64,000 nucleotides of DNA, from the NCBI RefSeq assembly GCF_000424625.1, contig NZ_AUKG01000001.1:248001-312000 (forward strand), read 5' to 3'. Within the stretch, counting starts at the first letter, position 1, and each line of letters starts with the position of its first letter. This stretch comes from Conexibacter woesei Iso977N. Lineage in GTDB: Bacteria > Actinomycetota > Thermoleophilia > Solirubrobacterales > Solirubrobacteraceae. The position numbers and the translations under genes were made by a program. Below, in pieces: positions 4,375-45,996 of the stretch. The notes under the pieces were generated by a model that saw nothing but the letters and a program-made list of their open reading frames with translations, searched no databases and was not told the origin of the DNA.

Positions 4375-6921
<2,547 letters not shown>

Positions 6922-8073: not shown

Positions 8074-8115
8074 ACGGCACACCCGACCGGGCGTAGGGTC
8101 CGACCACCCGTTCGC

Positions 8116-39776: not shown

Positions 39777-39849
39777 GGGGCTATAGCTCAGTTGGGAGAG
39801 CGCCTGGATCGCACCCAGGAGGTCGGGGGTTCGAGTCCCCCTAGCTCCA
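39777..39849 (+). tRNA. tRNA-Ala (anticodon CGC)
   Basis: The acceptor GGGGCTA pairs with TAGCTCC (one G-U). The D arm contains AGCTCAGTTGGGAGAGC, the anticodon stem CCTGG/CCAGG encloses ATCGCAC with anticodon CGC, and the T arm is GGGGGTTCGAGTCCCCC. The discriminator is A and CCA is not encoded. The gene marks the left edge of the compositionally different island. Confidence 0.97.
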
Positions 39850-39856
39850 CTCGGAT

Positions 39857-40007: not shown

Positions 40008-41654
40008 CTACAGACCGCGCCCGTATCGCAGCCAGTCGTAGAGACAGACTGCCTTTGCCCACTGCGACGAGACCGGCTGACGATCGGTGTCGAACGACTC
40101 GCGGTTCGCGACCAAGAAGTTGCGGAGCCCGTCAAGCTCGATCACATCTTCGTCCAGGAACGGCAGGTAGTAAAGGACATCGTCCGCCGAGCAGGCCTCG
40201 ACCAACGCCGCAAACGACGCAACCCCCTTCAGGTTCCGCTCCGCCCGCTGCCTGTACGAGCCCAGGCCTTTAAGCAAGGTCTCGCGCGCCTCGACCCGAT
40301 CGACGACCCGAGGAGGCAGCTGCGCCTCATCAGCGACGCGACCGTCGGCGTGAAGAAGGTCAGCGCCACGGAGGTACTTGTAGACCGGCAACATGGTGGT
40401 CTTGCTTCCTAGGCGTGGATTCGGCAACGCCTCCAAGACAACCCGGGAAGGGTCGTAGCCTCTGTCGTCAAGGACGTCGTCGAGCAGGTCGGCACGATTG
40501 AGACCCACGTACGACGTCGTCAGCTTGGCAATCGCGCCGATGCCCGCGTAGACCTCGACGCTCGACGGATCCGCGGAAGGCTCGAGTTCCTCGACGTACG
40601 CCCGGGCCGTGGGCTCACTGGTTTTCACGAGTTCGTAGATCTCTTTGCGCAAGTGCCGAAGGAGCCGTGCGGGGATCCGGCGCTTGACCGTCCCCAGCGC
40701 GGTGAACACCTCGCGGAAGTCCGGAACCACGATGCTCTGGACTGGGATAGCGAATCCTTCCGCCGAGATGACGGTGGACGCCATAGCTGGCGTAGCCCCC
40801 GGCTTCCACTCAACGAAGAGCAAGCGATCCCGCAAGTCCTGAATGCGATCGTCGGTCAGACACCGCGCGATGTCGACGAGGACCCGCTGGACGTTGCGAT
40901 CTGTCAGTGAGTAGCCCAAGAAGATCACGGGATGCTCGACGAAGATCGTGAGCAGCTTCGCAGCGAGGTATGGATTGCGCTCGTCGAATCGAGCGTAATC
41001 CTCGGCGGTCAGTACCAGGGAATTCGGCTGTTCAAATGAGCCGTGGATCTTGTAGATCTCGCCGATGCCCTGCGGGTCAGAGAACAGCAGTTCGTCTTGA
41101 CCGACGTACGGATGCAGGTCGGGCCGCACGTGCTCGAGAACCGGATCGAAGTTCGTGGTGATGATGCCGTCGATCACCGCCGCCTTCAGCAACTCGATCT
41201 CCTTGGCAAGTTCGCCTTCCGTAGGCAGACGATCGACAGCCTTGGCGAGGTGCGCGCTGATCTCAACCTTCAAGGCCGAGTCGCGAGCCACGATGAGTTC
41301 GGCATTGGCAGCCCGGCTTTCCTCGTACCGAGGATCGGACCACCACATCTCGTGAAAGTCGTTCGCCAGCAGCGTTGCAAGCCGAGGGAGGTCGCCGTCG
41401 GCGGTCGAGGCGTAGTACTCGTATGGCTTACTCAGCGGCTCCGCGAAAAGACGAAGCAACGCGGGCCAGCTCTCCGCACCCGTGTAGCGGATCGACAACC
41501 CAGCACCGACGAAGAGATACGGCACGGTCAGGCCGCCCAGGTGCTCGGTGAGCTGGTCCGCCAGGCCGCCCGCGGCCACGTCTGACTTGCTGACACGACG
41601 ACGCGCGCGTTGCCGAGGTCGAGGTGACGACGAAGACCCTGAGTCCGTTGCCAT
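40008..41654 (-). CDS. SIR2-domain protein, probable defence NADase
   Basis: The 548-aa protein has an N-terminal SIR2 domain of the SIR2_2 type: LFVGAGLSIRYTG (Gly-Ala-Gly at 50-52), GIITTNFDPVLEH (Asn and Asp at 168-170), YKIHGSFEQPNSLVLTAEDYARF (His204) and FLGYSLTDRNVQRVL. These are the NAD-binding and catalytic residues. About 250 residues of alpha-helical sequence follow with no recognised domain. Standalone SIR2 proteins of this layout are known as antiphage NAD-depleting effectors (DSR-like, ThsA-like). It is divergent from the radical SAM gene and has lower GC than the chromosome. The ATG at 41654 has no strong ribosome-binding site. Confidence 0.85.
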   Translation of the reverse strand: MATDSGSSSSPRPRQRARRRVSKSDVAAGGLADQLTEHLGGLTVPYLFVGAGLSIRYTGAESWPALLRLFAEPLSKPYEYYASTADGDLPRLATLLANDFHEMWWSDPRYEESRAANAELIVARDSALKVEISAHLAKAVDRLPTEGELAKEIELLKAAVIDGIITTNFDPVLEHVRPDLHPYVGQDELLFSDPQGIGEIYKIHGSFEQPNSLVLTAEDYARFDERNPYLAAKLLTIFVEHPVIFLGYSLTDRNVQRVLVDIARCLTDDRIQDLRDRLLFVEWKPGATPAMASTVISAEGFAIPVQSIVVPDFREVFTALGTVKRRIPARLLRHLRKEIYELVKTSEPTARAYVEELEPSADPSSVEVYAGIGAIAKLTTSYVGLNRADLLDDVLDDRGYDPSRVVLEALPNPRLGSKTTMLPVYKYLRGADLLHADGRVADEAQLPPRVVDRVEARETLLKGLGSYRQRAERNLKGVASFAALVEACSADDVLYYLPFLDEDVIELDGLRNFLVANRESFDTDRQPVSSQWAKAVCLYDWLRYGRGL

Positions 41655-41899
41655 AAGTGGCCACAGAGTGCCGCATTTTGGTGCCCCGAGGAGTCACGCG
41701 AGAGCGAGGCCCCGTACTGGCCGCAGCCTGACCGACATGTCGTAGGAAGCGATGCCTTTTGACGATTCGTTCAACACGGTCAGCACGACTGCACGGCGTT
41801 GCCGGCTTTCGCGCCATTACAAGGGACATACGAGAATCGTGGATCGGTGGCAGAAGACAGTTCGGGACCGTCCGATCGATGCTTTACCAATTCAGGGTG
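41655..41899. promoter_or_regulatory. divergent region between SIR2 and radical SAM genes
   Basis: This 245-bp, relatively A/T-rich gap holds the promoters of both genes. An in-frame extension of the radical SAM gene to 41759 exists but has no family support. I see no convincing dyad or SOS box here. Confidence 0.4.
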
Positions 41900-43270
41900 A
41901 TGTCACCGCTGGCCTCTCTTCATTCCGATCCGGCCCGTATCGCCATCCTTTATCCCGAGGTCTACGACTTGGCGCGCTTTCGCGAGGGTCGCCGCGAATT
42001 CCCGCCCTTTGGCCCGTTGTACCTCGCGGCCGTCGCAGAAGAGGCCGGGCACGAAGTCGTCCTTATGCGGATCCAAGAAGACGCACCCGACGTCAACCTC
42101 AAGGGCTTCGACGTCGTGGGATTCTCGATCTCCTCGTCGGCGACGTATGGCGTGATGCTGCGTGCGCGCCGCACCGCCTCACTGAGGCCCGACGCGCTGC
42201 TTCTCGCCGGAGGAGTTCACGCAAACTTCTACCCCGAACAGACCCTCGCGGACTTCGGCGTCCATGCCGTCGGCGTCGGTGAGGGCGAGGCCGCGCTTCT
42301 GGAATGTATCGACCGGCGCCACGCCCCGGATCGACTTAGCGAGGTCGCCGGTCTATGCCTCCGGGCCACCGACGGAACCACATACCAGACCGGTAACCGC
42401 TCAGTCAGCAAAGACATCAGCGATCTCCCGCTCCCGTCGCGCCACCTGCTGCCCGACGACGCAGTCGTGATGACCGACCGTCTAGCCGATACCGATCTGC
42501 GCATGGCACACGTCATGTTCAGCCGCGGCTGCCCGTTCCCCTGCCGGTTCTGCGCGGCCGCGAGAACCATCATTCAGTACAGATCAGGCGCCAGCGCACG
42601 CGCCGAACTCGAACAGCTCCAAGAGCGTTACGCCATCGAGGGATTTGCGATTGTCGATGACAACTTTATTGTCAACCGCAAGAAGGTCGCTGAGATTTGC
42701 GCGGCGATCACGCCGCTCGACCTTCGCTGGTCTGCGCTGTCGCGAGTCGACACCGTCACCCCAGAGTTGCTCGCAACGATGCGGTCCGCCGGCTGCATCG
42801 AGCTGAAGTTCGGCATGGAGTCGGGCAGCGCCCGGATGCTTGAGTTGATGAATAAAGGCGGCAAGGTCAGCCCCGATGTGATCCGACGCGCCGTCGCCGA
42901 CGCGCGAGCGGCAGACATCGGCGTGAAGCTGTTCGTCATCCACGGCTACCCGGGTGAAAACCGAGCCTCGACGGCGGAGACGATGAGCCTGCTCGATGAG
43001 CTAGCGCCCTCGGTCGACCGGGTCTCGCTCTTCCGATTCGTTCCGTTGCCTGGAACCTATGTCTATAACAACCCCGAGGAGTTTCGGCTTAGCGGAACCG
43101 ACCGAGACCCCGAGTGGGACGGCGACTGGGGCCGCTTCCACATTCACCACAACGAGCACCACTGGTGGGGAGACGAGAGCGACTTCGCCGAACTGGAGTC
43201 CTCGTATCGCGAACTCCGCGAGTACGTAGATTCGACCTGGCCAGACCGCCATGAATCCGCCGCGCCGTGA
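41900..43270 (+). CDS. B12-binding-domain radical SAM protein
   Basis: The 456-aa protein has an N-terminal B12-binding-like domain (about 12-140; RIAILYPEVYDLARF, PPFGPLYLAAVAEEAGHEVVL, LLAGGVHANFYPEQTL). A radical SAM domain follows with the [4Fe-4S] motif CPFPCRFC (Cys211, Cys215, Cys218), then FAIVDDNFIVNRKKV, ELKFGMESGSARMLELMNKG and VKLFVIHGYPGENRAST. The layout matches Elp3/MiaB-like B12-rSAM enzymes used in unusual methylations and rearrangements. The substrate is unknown. The stop overlaps the PRTase start (GTGA), so the two are coupled. Confidence 0.85.
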   Translation: MSPLASLHSDPARIAILYPEVYDLARFREGRREFPPFGPLYLAAVAEEAGHEVVLMRIQEDAPDVNLKGFDVVGFSISSSATYGVMLRARRTASLRPDALLLAGGVHANFYPEQTLADFGVHAVGVGEGEAALLECIDRRHAPDRLSEVAGLCLRATDGTTYQTGNRSVSKDISDLPLPSRHLLPDDAVVMTDRLADTDLRMAHVMFSRGCPFPCRFCAAARTIIQYRSGASARAELEQLQERYAIEGFAIVDDNFIVNRKKVAEICAAITPLDLRWSALSRVDTVTPELLATMRSAGCIELKFGMESGSARMLELMNKGGKVSPDVIRRAVADARAADIGVKLFVIHGYPGENRASTAETMSLLDELAPSVDRVSLFRFVPLPGTYVYNNPEEFRLSGTDRDPEWDGDWGRFHIHHNEHHWWGDESDFAELESSYRELREYVDSTWPDRHESAAP

Positions 43271-43821
43271 ATGTCATCGTCGAGGAGGACGGCGCAGATG
43301 CGCTGCTCAGAGTGATCGTCGCCCTTGGCGATTACTCGCATGAGGCAGACCAAGATTTAGGCCACCGCCGACATCGTGCGCGGGCCGACATCGGCGTGCT
43401 TCTCAACCGCGCCAAATACCACCCTGAATCTCCTCGCAGCCAAGAGGACGCTCAAGCGAACCTCGTCGGTCTGCTTCTAAAGGAACTCGAAAGCGACCCG
43501 CGCCTCGCAGTCGCGGACGCAGTGGTCGCCGTACCGTCAAGCAGGGGCACTTTCTCGAACGACATCGCTGCCGATCTGGAACACGGACTCAAGATCCCGG
43601 TGTACATAGGTCGCGCCCGGGTCCAAGGAGGTCGAGCCGCCAAGAACCACGCGGTCAAGCGGCAGTACGACGTCGACACGCGGCTCGACGACATGAGCGT
43701 GGTGATCTTCGACGACGTCTACGACACCGGCAGTTCGCTGTATGCCCTCGCCAGCGCGGCGATCGCGGCTGGCGCGAAGAACTGCGCCGGTCTGGTGATT
43801 GCCCGAAAGCTCAGCGGCTAG
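43267..43821 (+). CDS. phosphoribosyltransferase-fold protein
   Basis: The 184-aa protein contains a PRPP-binding loop VVIFDDVYDTGSSLYAL (about 145-160), preceded by AVVAVPSSRGTFSNDIAADLEH, the usual strand-loop of type I PRTases, and ends LVIARKLSG. The Cys cluster of ComF proteins is missing, and no hood typical of uracil or adenine PRTases is obvious, so the base substrate is unknown. In this island it is coupled to a radical SAM gene and followed by a DprA-like gene. Confidence 0.85.
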   Translation: MNVIVEEDGADALLRVIVALGDYSHEADQDLGHRRHRARADIGVLLNRAKYHPESPRSQEDAQANLVGLLLKELESDPRLAVADAVVAVPSSRGTFSNDIAADLEHGLKIPVYIGRARVQGGRAAKNHAVKRQYDVDTRLDDMSVVIFDDVYDTGSSLYALASAAIAAGAKNCAGLVIARKLSG

Positions 43822-43828
43822 GTGCCTC

Positions 43829-43842
43829 CGAACATATGTTCG
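43829..43842. promoter_or_regulatory. SOS box (LexA operator) candidate
   Basis: CGAACATATGTTCG is a perfect 14-bp palindrome that fits the LexA operator of Gram-positive bacteria and actinobacteria (CGAAC-N4-GTTCG). It lies 36 bp upstream of the DprA-like ATG at 43878 and would cover the promoter. An ATG inside the palindrome (43836) is therefore unlikely to be a start codon. Confidence 0.75.
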
Positions 43843-43877
43843 CCCTTTCGTCCGTCCGTGTCCCTACGCTCCCTAAT

Positions 43878-44738
43878 ATGCCCTCCGCCCAGCCTATGCC
43901 GGGCTCCCACCACCGCCCTTTGACCACCGACTACGGCCTGCGTCGCCTCGCGCTGACCGCTGTCGGGCAACGCCATGCCCGTGAGGCCCTTCGCGACGGC
44001 CGCGGTAGCCGACTCTGGGACGAGCTCGAAGAGGAGCAGCGCGCTCGGCTACGTGAGCTTGCTGAGAATCTCGACCAGCGCAACGTGCGCATGCTGTTGC
44101 CAATCGACCCCGACTGGCCCGCAGCCCTGAACGACTTGCCGACCCCGCCTGTCTACCTCTTCGCGTGGGGTTCGACCGTCCTTCTCCAAGAGCCCGGTGT
44201 CGGTATGTGCGGATCACGCAACGCAACCGAGCGAGGTTTAGATGCCGCCCGAGCTTGCGGGCGCGAGGCTGCGCTTCAGGGCATGCACGTCATCTCGGGC
44301 TACGCCAAAGGCGTCGACACCGTCACCCACCTCGCCGCGCTCGAGTCTGGCGCCGGCACCGTAATCGTTCTCGCCGAAGGGATTCTTCATTTCCGGCCTA
44401 AGCGCGTCTTCGACAACGTCGGTCTTGATCCCGAGCGCGTCCTCGTCCTCTCGCAGTTCCCGCCCTCCCAGCGATGGACCGCCGGCGCTGCCATGACACG
44501 CAACGGCGTCATCTGCGCGCTCGGCCGCGCGCTGGTCGTAGTAGAGGCTGGCGAGCGCGGGGGCACCCTGAACGCCGGTCGCCAAGCGCTCAAGTTGGGC
44601 CGACACGTCTTCGCTCTGCAGTTCGGTGACGACGCTCCCGCGGGCAACCGGTCGCTATTCGCCGAGGGCGCTCGCCGGTTAGCGTCCACCGGTCAGCTGA
44701 GTCAAGCGCTACGAGAATTACGCCCCGCCTCACCCTGA
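43878..44738 (+). CDS. DprA/Smf-like (SLOG superfamily) protein
   Basis: The 286-aa protein has a Rossmann-like DprA core: MCGSRNATERGLDAARACGREAALQG, HVISGYAKGVDTVTHLAALESGAGTVIVLAEGI, then QRWTAGAAMTRNGVICALGRALVVVEAGERGGTLNAGRQALKLGRHVFAL. True DprA loads RecA on ssDNA during transformation, and the Arg-Asn pair of its loop is kept (TRNGVI). The N-terminal SAM domain and C-terminal winged helix are absent, and the neighbours are not competence genes, so a nucleotide-sensing (SLOG) role in a conflict system is more likely. The ATG is 36 bp after the SOS box. Confidence 0.85.
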   Translation: MPSAQPMPGSHHRPLTTDYGLRRLALTAVGQRHAREALRDGRGSRLWDELEEEQRARLRELAENLDQRNVRMLLPIDPDWPAALNDLPTPPVYLFAWGSTVLLQEPGVGMCGSRNATERGLDAARACGREAALQGMHVISGYAKGVDTVTHLAALESGAGTVIVLAEGILHFRPKRVFDNVGLDPERVLVLSQFPPSQRWTAGAAMTRNGVICALGRALVVVEAGERGGTLNAGRQALKLGRHVFALQFGDDAPAGNRSLFAEGARRLASTGQLSQALRELRPASP

Positions 44739-44769: not shown

Positions 44770-45996
44770 GTGCTGCGTCCGCGCATGCCTGCCCCTGCCG
44801 CCCGCATCTCGTCGTCATCGGCCCTCGCGGCTCTCCTCGCGCAGCGACCGCTCATCGAGATCTCGGCCGTCACCGAGCGAGGTTGGCGGTTGGCTCGCCA
44901 GGGACTCGCTCCCGCGCATCCCACAAACCTCGAAGACTTGGCCCGCATCCACTGCGGCCTTCACTCAGCTCGTCAGCTCACCCCTTGGGTCACGCTCCAC
45001 GCACGCCAGAGCACAGCGTCACCGGCACTGCTCCGGCAATCGCTCATCGAGCGCCGGCTTCTGCGCCTTCGCTGCATGCGACGCACCCTGCACCTCGTCC
45101 CGCAGGATCTCGCACCGATCGTCCACAGTGCCACCCTCGCCCAACGCATCGCGCCATGCCGCCTTGCTCTCCAGCGGTCTGGACTGAGCGCTCGATTGTG
45201 GTCCGCAGTCTCCGACGCCGTGACTCTTTCGCTAGAGGACGGGGAGCTTGGCTACCGCGACCTTGAGCATGAGGTCATCGCACGAGTCCCGCGCTTGATT
45301 CGCCGGAGAGACGACTGCCTCGCCATGGTGCGTCTAGCGATCAAGACGCTATGGGAAGAAGGCGCGCTCCTGGTCGGCGACTCAAGCCCGAGCCTCCATC
45401 ACGAACACCGCACCTTTGCGTTGACCACCCAGGCAGCGCCCGGCCTCGATCTCAATGCCCTGACTCCTCGCGCGGCGACATCGCAGCTTCTGCCGCTATA
45501 CCTCGAGGGCTACGGCCCTGCAAGCGTTCGCGATTTTCGGTGGTGGTCAGGTATCGGGCTGTCCGACTCTCTCCCCGCATGGGAAGACCTGGCTGATCAC
45601 CTCGTGCGTGTGCGTATCGCGGAGCGCCCCCACGAAGAGCTCATCGCTCTTGATCGCACCATTTCTGCCCTACTCGAGGGTCAGTGGGAGACGCTGGTCG
45701 ACGACGGCGCCGCACAGGTACTTGCGTACGAAGATCCTGCCCTCAAAGGCTACTTCGCGACACGCTGGCGCTACGTCGATCATGCTCACCAGCACCGACT
45801 GTTCAACACCATCGGTGAAGCGCGCGCATCGCTGATGCTTGACGGACGAGTCGCAGCTGTGTGGCACTGGGACCGGCCTAGCCAAAGCCCGCGATTAGAG
45901 CCGCTCCGCCCACTTCGCGCCGGCGAGCGGGACAGACTGAACACGGCGCTGAGTCGAGTTACCGGCTATCTCCGCAGCGAACCCCTGCTCCGCTGA
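44770..45996 (+). CDS. HTH_42/AlkZ-like winged-helix DNA-binding protein
   Basis: The 408-aa protein has the layout of the AlkZ/AlkX (YcaQ) group: an N-terminal part with VTERGWRLARQGLAPAHP, three tandem winged-helix-like units, then PLYLEGYGPASVRDFRWWSGIGLSDSLPAWEDL, which is the most family-like stretch. AlkZ members are DNA glycosylases that unhook crosslinks or act on bulky lesions, but the catalytic QxQ motif of AlkZ is not evident here (GLHSARQLTPW in its place), so catalysis is uncertain. GTG 44770 is chosen; an ATG at 44785 is an alternative. It follows the SOS-boxed DprA-like gene by 31 bp on the same strand. Confidence 0.8.
   Translation: MLRPRMPAPAARISSSSALAALLAQRPLIEISAVTERGWRLARQGLAPAHPTNLEDLARIHCGLHSARQLTPWVTLHARQSTASPALLRQSLIERRLLRLRCMRRTLHLVPQDLAPIVHSATLAQRIAPCRLALQRSGLSARLWSAVSDAVTLSLEDGELGYRDLEHEVIARVPRLIRRRDDCLAMVRLAIKTLWEEGALLVGDSSPSLHHEHRTFALTTQAAPGLDLNALTPRAATSQLLPLYLEGYGPASVRDFRWWSGIGLSDSLPAWEDLADHLVRVRIAERPHEELIALDRTISALLEGQWETLVDDGAAQVLAYEDPALKGYFATRWRYVDHAHQHRLFNTIGEARASLMLDGRVAAVWHWDRPSQSPRLEPLRPLRAGERDRLNTALSRVTGYLRSEPLLR

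Follow-up and report, generated by a model that had tools for sequence, protein, structure and literature searches.

Does the palindrome that lies in front of a DprA-like gene in Conexibacter woesei Iso977N serve as an operator of LexA, and if so, which of the surrounding genes would it couple to the SOS response? The DNA analysed here, termed the window, is a stretch of 64,000 nucleotides from this genome. The palindrome lies among the following features:

39777..39850, strand +: tRNA-Ala(CGC); the repeat at its 3' end (39805-39854) probably marks where an island begins on the left
40008..41654, strand -: SIR2-like gene, an uncharacterised defence candidate (PDC-S25; PADLOC 7.6e-154), with no upstream box
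41759..43270, strand +: B12-binding radical SAM gene, sharing 4 bp with the start of the next gene
43267..43821, strand +: phosphoribosyltransferase (PRTase) gene, putative toxin (ShosT/PsyrT-like, short form), assigned by PADLOC, Pfam, and fold
43829..43842, strand '.': predicted LexA operator CGAACATATGTTCG, with the consensus of the organism's own lexA operator and a box in four of five close-clade members
43836..44738 (or with its start at 43878), strand +: DprA-like gene, putative antitoxin (ShosA/PsyrA/RqlI-like), assigned by Pfam and PADLOC
44770..45996, strand +: AlkZ-like (HTH_42) gene, assigned by Pfam AlkZ-like (104.4 bits, cut-off 25.9)

Excerpts of one published study describe pairs of DprA and PRTase genes as giving phage defence, with DprA homologues as the antitoxins in shosTA, syrTA, and rqlHI (PMC9122126). 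We propose, at a probability of roughly 0.82, that the box in the window is the LexA operator of the DprA-like and AlkZ-like genes and that it accompanies a PRTase–DprA pair resembling ShosTA, PsyrTA, and RqlHI.

A palindrome in the form of the host lexA operator

The sequence CGAACATATGTTCG at 43829-43842 is the sole exact CGAAC-N4-GTTCG in the window, and both the sequence and the coordinates of the original prediction are thereby confirmed. A loose match alone tells little, since allowing up to two mismatches to CGAACN4GTTCG yields 85 matches in the window, against a mean of 55 and a largest count of 76 in shuffled sequence. By a 22-column matrix built from nine sites of the organism's own genome, from which the window site at 43829 was excluded, the palindrome scores 23.8 bits and the second-best place in the window 12.8. 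A score of 23.8 bits was reached in one of 500 Markov-shuffled 64-kb windows; a separate run of 100 shuffled windows had a top score of 28.2, hence at least one of these also reached 23.8. The PRTase gene ends (43821) 7 bp upstream of the box, 35 bp separate the box from the ATG at 43878 of the DprA-like frame, and a further ATG of the same frame (43836) falls within the box, which sits between the putative toxin and putative antitoxin genes. One-mismatch sites fall within two coding sequences, those of SIR2 (41081) and radical SAM (42799). The stretches upstream of these genes are free of sites, as had been stated from the sequence at the outset: the best matrix score between the SIR2 and radical SAM genes is -7.2, and that before the PRTase gene is 1.0. 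Elsewhere in the window, a one-mismatch LexA-like sequence, CGACCACCCGTTCG at 8101-8114, is located 5 bp before a 448-aa frame and has a low matrix score (9.5).

The genome of the host (5,695,417 bases on nine contigs) was scanned with the same pattern, using the reversed pattern as control. Exact CGAAC-N4-GTTCG occurs 18 times genome-wide versus once for the control, and the looser GAAC-N4-GTTC 47 versus 17 times. An exact box is found 25 bp before the predicted start of lexA (C2:707263; NCBIfam lexA, 226 bits), and recA, of which a single gene was found, carries CGAACGTGCGTACG, which has one mismatch and is located 70 bp upstream of the closest suitable ATG. The original prediction had been staked on the consensus of the organism's own lexA and recA operators, and this consensus does not differ from the palindrome: the lexA site agrees exactly and the recA site with one mismatch. 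Because the two host operators share its form, the window palindrome is very probably a real LexA operator; we infer that LexA binds at 43829-43842 and that the box mediates induction, the binding itself being a prediction in which we have high confidence. A closely related pattern, tCGAAC-N4-GNNCGa, is bound by LexA of Streptomyces venezuelae according to ChIP-seq and SPR data reported in passages of PMC9380542.

The other exact sites in the genome give a mixed picture. Seven of the 17 are located at damage-linked genes, namely lexA, genes for ImuB-like, DnaE-like (a label given by reading the sequence by eye), DinB, and RecQ-like proteins, and an Rv2578c-type radical SAM gene with two boxes; the box of the RecQ-like helicase falls inside the predicted frame, close to its start. 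The Rv2578c-type gene contains an intein, and its two LexA boxes lie 19 bp apart in front of it (L013 1501-1547). One further exact site lies beside a small gene adjoining ligD. Eight of the 17 are at no obvious damage gene: seven are without a candidate by eye, and for the eighth (L012) a DinB-like gene is located about 1 kb further downstream, beyond another open frame. At the canonical dprA of the host (C2:1243920), 3.6 kb contain no box, even with one mismatch allowed.

Another of the 17 has the very sequence of the window palindrome, CGAACATATGTTCG, and ends 3 bp ahead of a gene for a cytosine-5 DNA methyltransferase (C3:135692; L021 1501-1514). The sequence occurs again in a second genome, G052 (C7:71460; L117 1501-1514), over the start codon of what by eye is a cytosine-5 DNA methyltransferase, with a frame beyond it that by eye is Vsr-like. 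These positions in two genomes make SOS control of the methyltransferases possible.

The genes on either side of the box

The family names DprA-like and AlkZ-like, which had been assigned from the letters of the sequence, proved correct by Pfam (155.9 bits to DNA_processg_A for the former and the score listed above for the latter). In PADLOC, the DprA-like protein matches PsyrA at 2.6e-44 and ShosA at 4.2e-42. Its score to the NCBIfam dprA equivalog, 139.4 bits, is under the cut-off of 191.15 for a canonical DprA, and a PF02481 gene with a higher score (230.7 bits) is found elsewhere in the genome. The ShosA structure 9vzo is among the profile matches of the protein; since the ordinary DprA 3uqz matches better, membership specifically in ShosTA is only putative.

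The gene upstream of the box had been overlooked in the original prediction. Together with the DprA-like gene, which it adjoins with the toxin-like gene first, this PRTase gene probably forms a PsyrTA/ShosTA-like pair, the PRTase call being derived from weak profile matches and the fold. The protein matches PADLOC PsyrT at 5.1e-6 and ShosT at 2.2e-4, and scores 21.3 bits to Pfam Pribosyltran, under the cut-off of 26.3. It aligns to PRTases from three relatives of the clade described below with 27-31% identity and contains a DDVYDTG stretch, while about 90 N-terminal residues are absent compared with these three. Its predicted fold (mean pLDDT 72) resembles purine PRTases, with a best E of 1.1e-6 and TM-scores of 0.49/0.58. 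That PRTase and DprA-like protein work as a toxin–antitoxin or defence pair is, by analogy with published systems, somewhat more probable than the contrary.

Downstream, the AlkZ-like gene begins 31 bp after the DprA-like gene, a gap from which a common transcript appears probable. When aligned to AlkZ (PDB 5uuj), the AlkZ-like protein has H-S-A in place of the Q-A-Q of AlkZ, a QxQ motif that we take to be catalytic, and glycosylase activity is therefore doubtful. The original prediction had the cassette as a whole responding to DNA damage. This has to be narrowed, as only the DprA-like gene and, by the 31-bp distance, the AlkZ-like gene are located behind the box; the SIR2, radical SAM, and PRTase genes are not.

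On the far side, the SIR2-like gene is divergent from the B12-binding radical SAM gene. The last 46 bases of the tRNA-Ala gene plus four further bases (39805-39854) are repeated at C1:357654-357703 with 49 of 50 positions identical, and this direct repeat places the cassette probably within an island of about 70 kb. The cassette, whose stretch of lower GC content begins at this tRNA gene, has about 62-68% GC, compared with about 69-76% around it. In another genome of the genus (G060), six partial copies of the repeat are listed at 230-268 kb and the genome's own tRNA copy is at about 278 kb, which makes a repeatedly used insertion site, or hot spot, at this tRNA likely.

Recurrence of the box at DprA–PRTase modules

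At a threshold of E <= 1e-45, a survey of the phylum for the DprA-like protein found one in 396 genomes (the organism's own), and a survey of the class three in 399 (own, G051, and G052). The same three genomes were recovered by a PRTase search of 232 genomes of the order. Scans with the DprA-like protein returned one locus from GTDB contigs (L026, Amycolatopsis oliviviridis) and one from viral contigs (L057, found again as L073), and a viral-contig scan with the L025 query returned no locus. No match was obtained in a PRTase search of phages with the Amycolatopsis query, and the PRTase query from L025 gave one match, a ComF-type enzyme on a Priestia plasmid. A survey with the PRTase profile, matched by 114 of 396 phylum genomes, was set aside: beyond the organism's own protein, it mainly matched the C-terminal PRTase part, as ComF-type enzymes would.

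The resulting clade is small and consists of the window and four loci (L024, L025, L026, and L057) whose DprA-like proteins are 45-48% identical to that of the window. L024 (from genome G052) and L025 (from G051) belong to one genus, different from that of the window but in the same order, and are not fully independent. A PRTase gene lies beside the DprA-like gene in all four relatives, and an exact box is present at the module in four of the five members. In L024, where the two genes form a PRTase–DprA operon, one in-frame ATG falls within the box and the next follows 2 bp after its end; in L025, whose PRTase and DprA genes likewise make up a two-gene operon, the box borders directly on the start codon of the PRTase gene; in L026 it is placed between divergent PRTase and DprA genes. 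On the viral contig L057, 6.9 kb contain no box, even with one mismatch allowed. Since the surroundings of the module differ among the window, L024, and L025, the box seems to move with the module. Exact-pattern counts in the two related genomes are hardly above the reversed control (14 vs 11 in G051 and 21 vs 14 in G052), so that the argument there rests on the position of the box and on the other G051 sites, which by eye lie at DinB-, UvrA-, RecN-, and Mfd-like genes.

A wider set was picked by hand and comprises 19 more distant actinobacterial DprA loci, 17 on plasmids and two in Gordonia phages; the sources were sets of 139 and 70 plasmid records, from which 20 loci were taken (17 of them actinobacterial), and eight of 27 phage records. 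An exact box precedes DprA in two of the 19, on Pseudonocardia plasmid pBCI1-2 (75 bp) and in Gordonia phage Vasanti (28 bp), a proportion that, as the loci were hand-picked, is no estimate of frequency. Vasanti is a temperate phage whose DprA–PRTase pair, with its exact LexA box at L076 2264-2277, lies about 2 kb from an integrase gene. Among the 17 loci without an exact box, three from Streptomyces share one type, as do two from Rhodococcus; in one of the 17, the Mycolicibacterium aubagnense locus L088, a box with one mismatch is located 199 bp upstream. By annotation, ten of the 19 loci, both boxed ones included, have a PRTase-type neighbour; the other eight of these ten have no exact box. 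At least three of the nine loci without such an annotation encode a hypothetical protein that may be a PRTase, namely L063 (aligned as one), L064 (similar), and L086 (with a PRTase-like motif). Clade and wider set together have the exact box in six of 24 loci, counted between 250 bp ahead of the start and 60 bp past it; under a Markov model from seven of the loci, a 311-bp stretch of this kind would contain an exact box with a chance of at most 0.0028.

In the Streptomyces plasmid loci L061, L062, and L067, a half-site, TTCGAACA, is conserved upstream while the second half is absent; these were scored as misses. L061 also has a one-mismatch LexA-like sequence, CGTACGCATGTTCG (5076-5089), 54 bp before dnaE; a single ligase gene separates it from a DprA–ComF-type pair lacking a box of its own.

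Outside the actinobacteria, an E. coli-type LexA box was found directly before DprA in none of eight loci (L060, L070, L074, L075, and L078-L081). Four of these are weak tests because little sequence precedes the first gene: 50 and 80 bp in the RecQ–DprA loci L060 and L070, hardly a test at all, 147 bp in the P2-like phage module L078, and 34 bp in L081. A one-mismatch match lies 285 bp before DprA in Pseudomonas phage Riah (L080), and L069, scanned instead with a cyanobacterial pattern, gave no match.

These loci bear on how the window is to be read. The box could be a real LexA operator of nothing more than a DNA-repair accessory operon, composed of the DprA-like and AlkZ-like genes, that has no toxin–antitoxin role, the PRTase belonging instead with the radical SAM gene. 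Such an arrangement would suit the 4-bp overlap of PRTase and radical SAM genes, the separation of PRTase and DprA-like genes by the box, the weakness of the PRTase profile matches, and a predicted LexA site before dprA in Dinoroseobacter shibae (in excerpts of PMC6473078). We nevertheless consider it unlikely, because a PRTase gene neighbours the DprA-like gene in L024, L025, L026, and L057 and, by annotation, in ten of the 19 wider loci, and the window PRTase is recognisably similar to three of the clade PRTases at the identity given above. It is highly improbable that the palindrome is bound not by LexA but by another dimeric repressor of a mobile island. Mobile elements often carry their own repressors, and the cassette belongs to an island of lower GC content beside a tRNA gene; yet the palindrome has the form of the host lexA operator and accompanies the module in different actinobacterial genera. 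That it is a chance palindrome, or a remnant over the start of a coding sequence, is scarcely credible even though shuffled windows occasionally contain an equally good site, given its exact placement at a gene start and its recurrence in four of five clade members at the low per-locus chance stated.

Proposed control of the pair and its relation to known systems

What is new is the predicted LexA-type control of a DprA–PRTase module, with the operator placed, in the window, between the toxin-like and antitoxin-like genes. No report of such control appeared among the best matches in the open-licence literature. Under the proposed control, LexA bound to 43829-43842 would repress the DprA-like and downstream AlkZ-like genes in the undamaged cell. 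RecA filaments on single-stranded DNA would trigger self-cleavage of LexA and thereby switch both genes on. Genotoxicity would probably come from the PRTase, with the DprA-like protein holding it in check; damage, whether caused by an attacking phage or by the PRTase itself, would then raise the amount of the restraining partner in a feedback. We infer the toxin and antitoxin roles by analogy with published RqlHI and ShosTA. If the toxin is constitutive and LexA represses the antitoxin, the cell would be in danger unless leaky expression of the antitoxin is enough.

In its gene arrangement, the pair resembles ShosTA and PsyrTA, with adjacent PRTase and DprA-like genes, the toxin-like one first, and PsyrA/ShosA profile matches of 1e-44/1e-42; it differs from them by the LexA-type operator between the genes, the short PRTase, and the extra AlkZ-like gene. 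ShosT disturbs purine metabolism and DNA, whereas ShosA binds DNA and likely favours recombination, according to parts of a review that also names a T7 inhibitor of host RNA polymerase as the trigger of ShosTA (PMC12593503). Another source gives, in the section available, a phage single-strand-binding protein or a replication intermediate as an alternative likely trigger (PMC10732053). RqlHI of extraintestinal E. coli combines a RecQ-like helicase–PRTase fusion with the DprA-like RqlI, while the window has no helicase. Passages on this system report that the PRTase domain of RqlH is genotoxic and causes SOS induction and filamentation unless RqlI is present, i.e., a PRTase domain restrained by a DprA-like partner, which is the feature that the window pair would share (PMC4670107). 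In these passages, the PRTase causes damage and SOS, and SOS is a consequence and not the controller (PMC4670107).

The operator consensus links the window to the LexA/SOS regulon of Actinomycetota, and the S. venezuelae regulon likewise contains a radical SAM gene; the DprA–PRTase module is not among the regulon members named in the consulted portion of that study (PMC9380542). A toxin–antitoxin system inducible by a DNA-damaging drug has a precedent in higBA of IncC plasmids, which is described in part of one report as ciprofloxacin-inducible and SOS-linked and belongs to another protein family (PMC8265657).

A more specific possibility, which we regard as speculative and rather improbable, is that the module guards the integrity of the SOS response itself. 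The PRTase, expressed from the radical SAM operon, would be free of LexA, and the DprA-like and AlkZ-like genes would be limited by SOS inducibility. Low-level damage by the PRTase would then elicit SOS and more antitoxin, while a phage that stops host transcription or blocks RecA/LexA would prevent this answer, and the toxin would kill the cell. Such gating would fit the T7 inhibitor of host RNA polymerase as a ShosTA trigger (the same review excerpts, PMC12593503). It would apply only to the arrangement in the window, as both genes of the pair are downstream of the box in L024, L025, and the two boxed wider loci.

Control by LexA of the DprA-like and AlkZ-like genes, next to a PRTase–DprA pair, remains our preferred reading. 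That the operator recurs, also in a temperate Gordonia phage and on a plasmid, suggests a regulatory input from the damage alarm of the host into some of these modules. Judged from the sequences compared here, such defence modules appear to be tied to the damage alarm of the cell, at least in some bacteria and phages.
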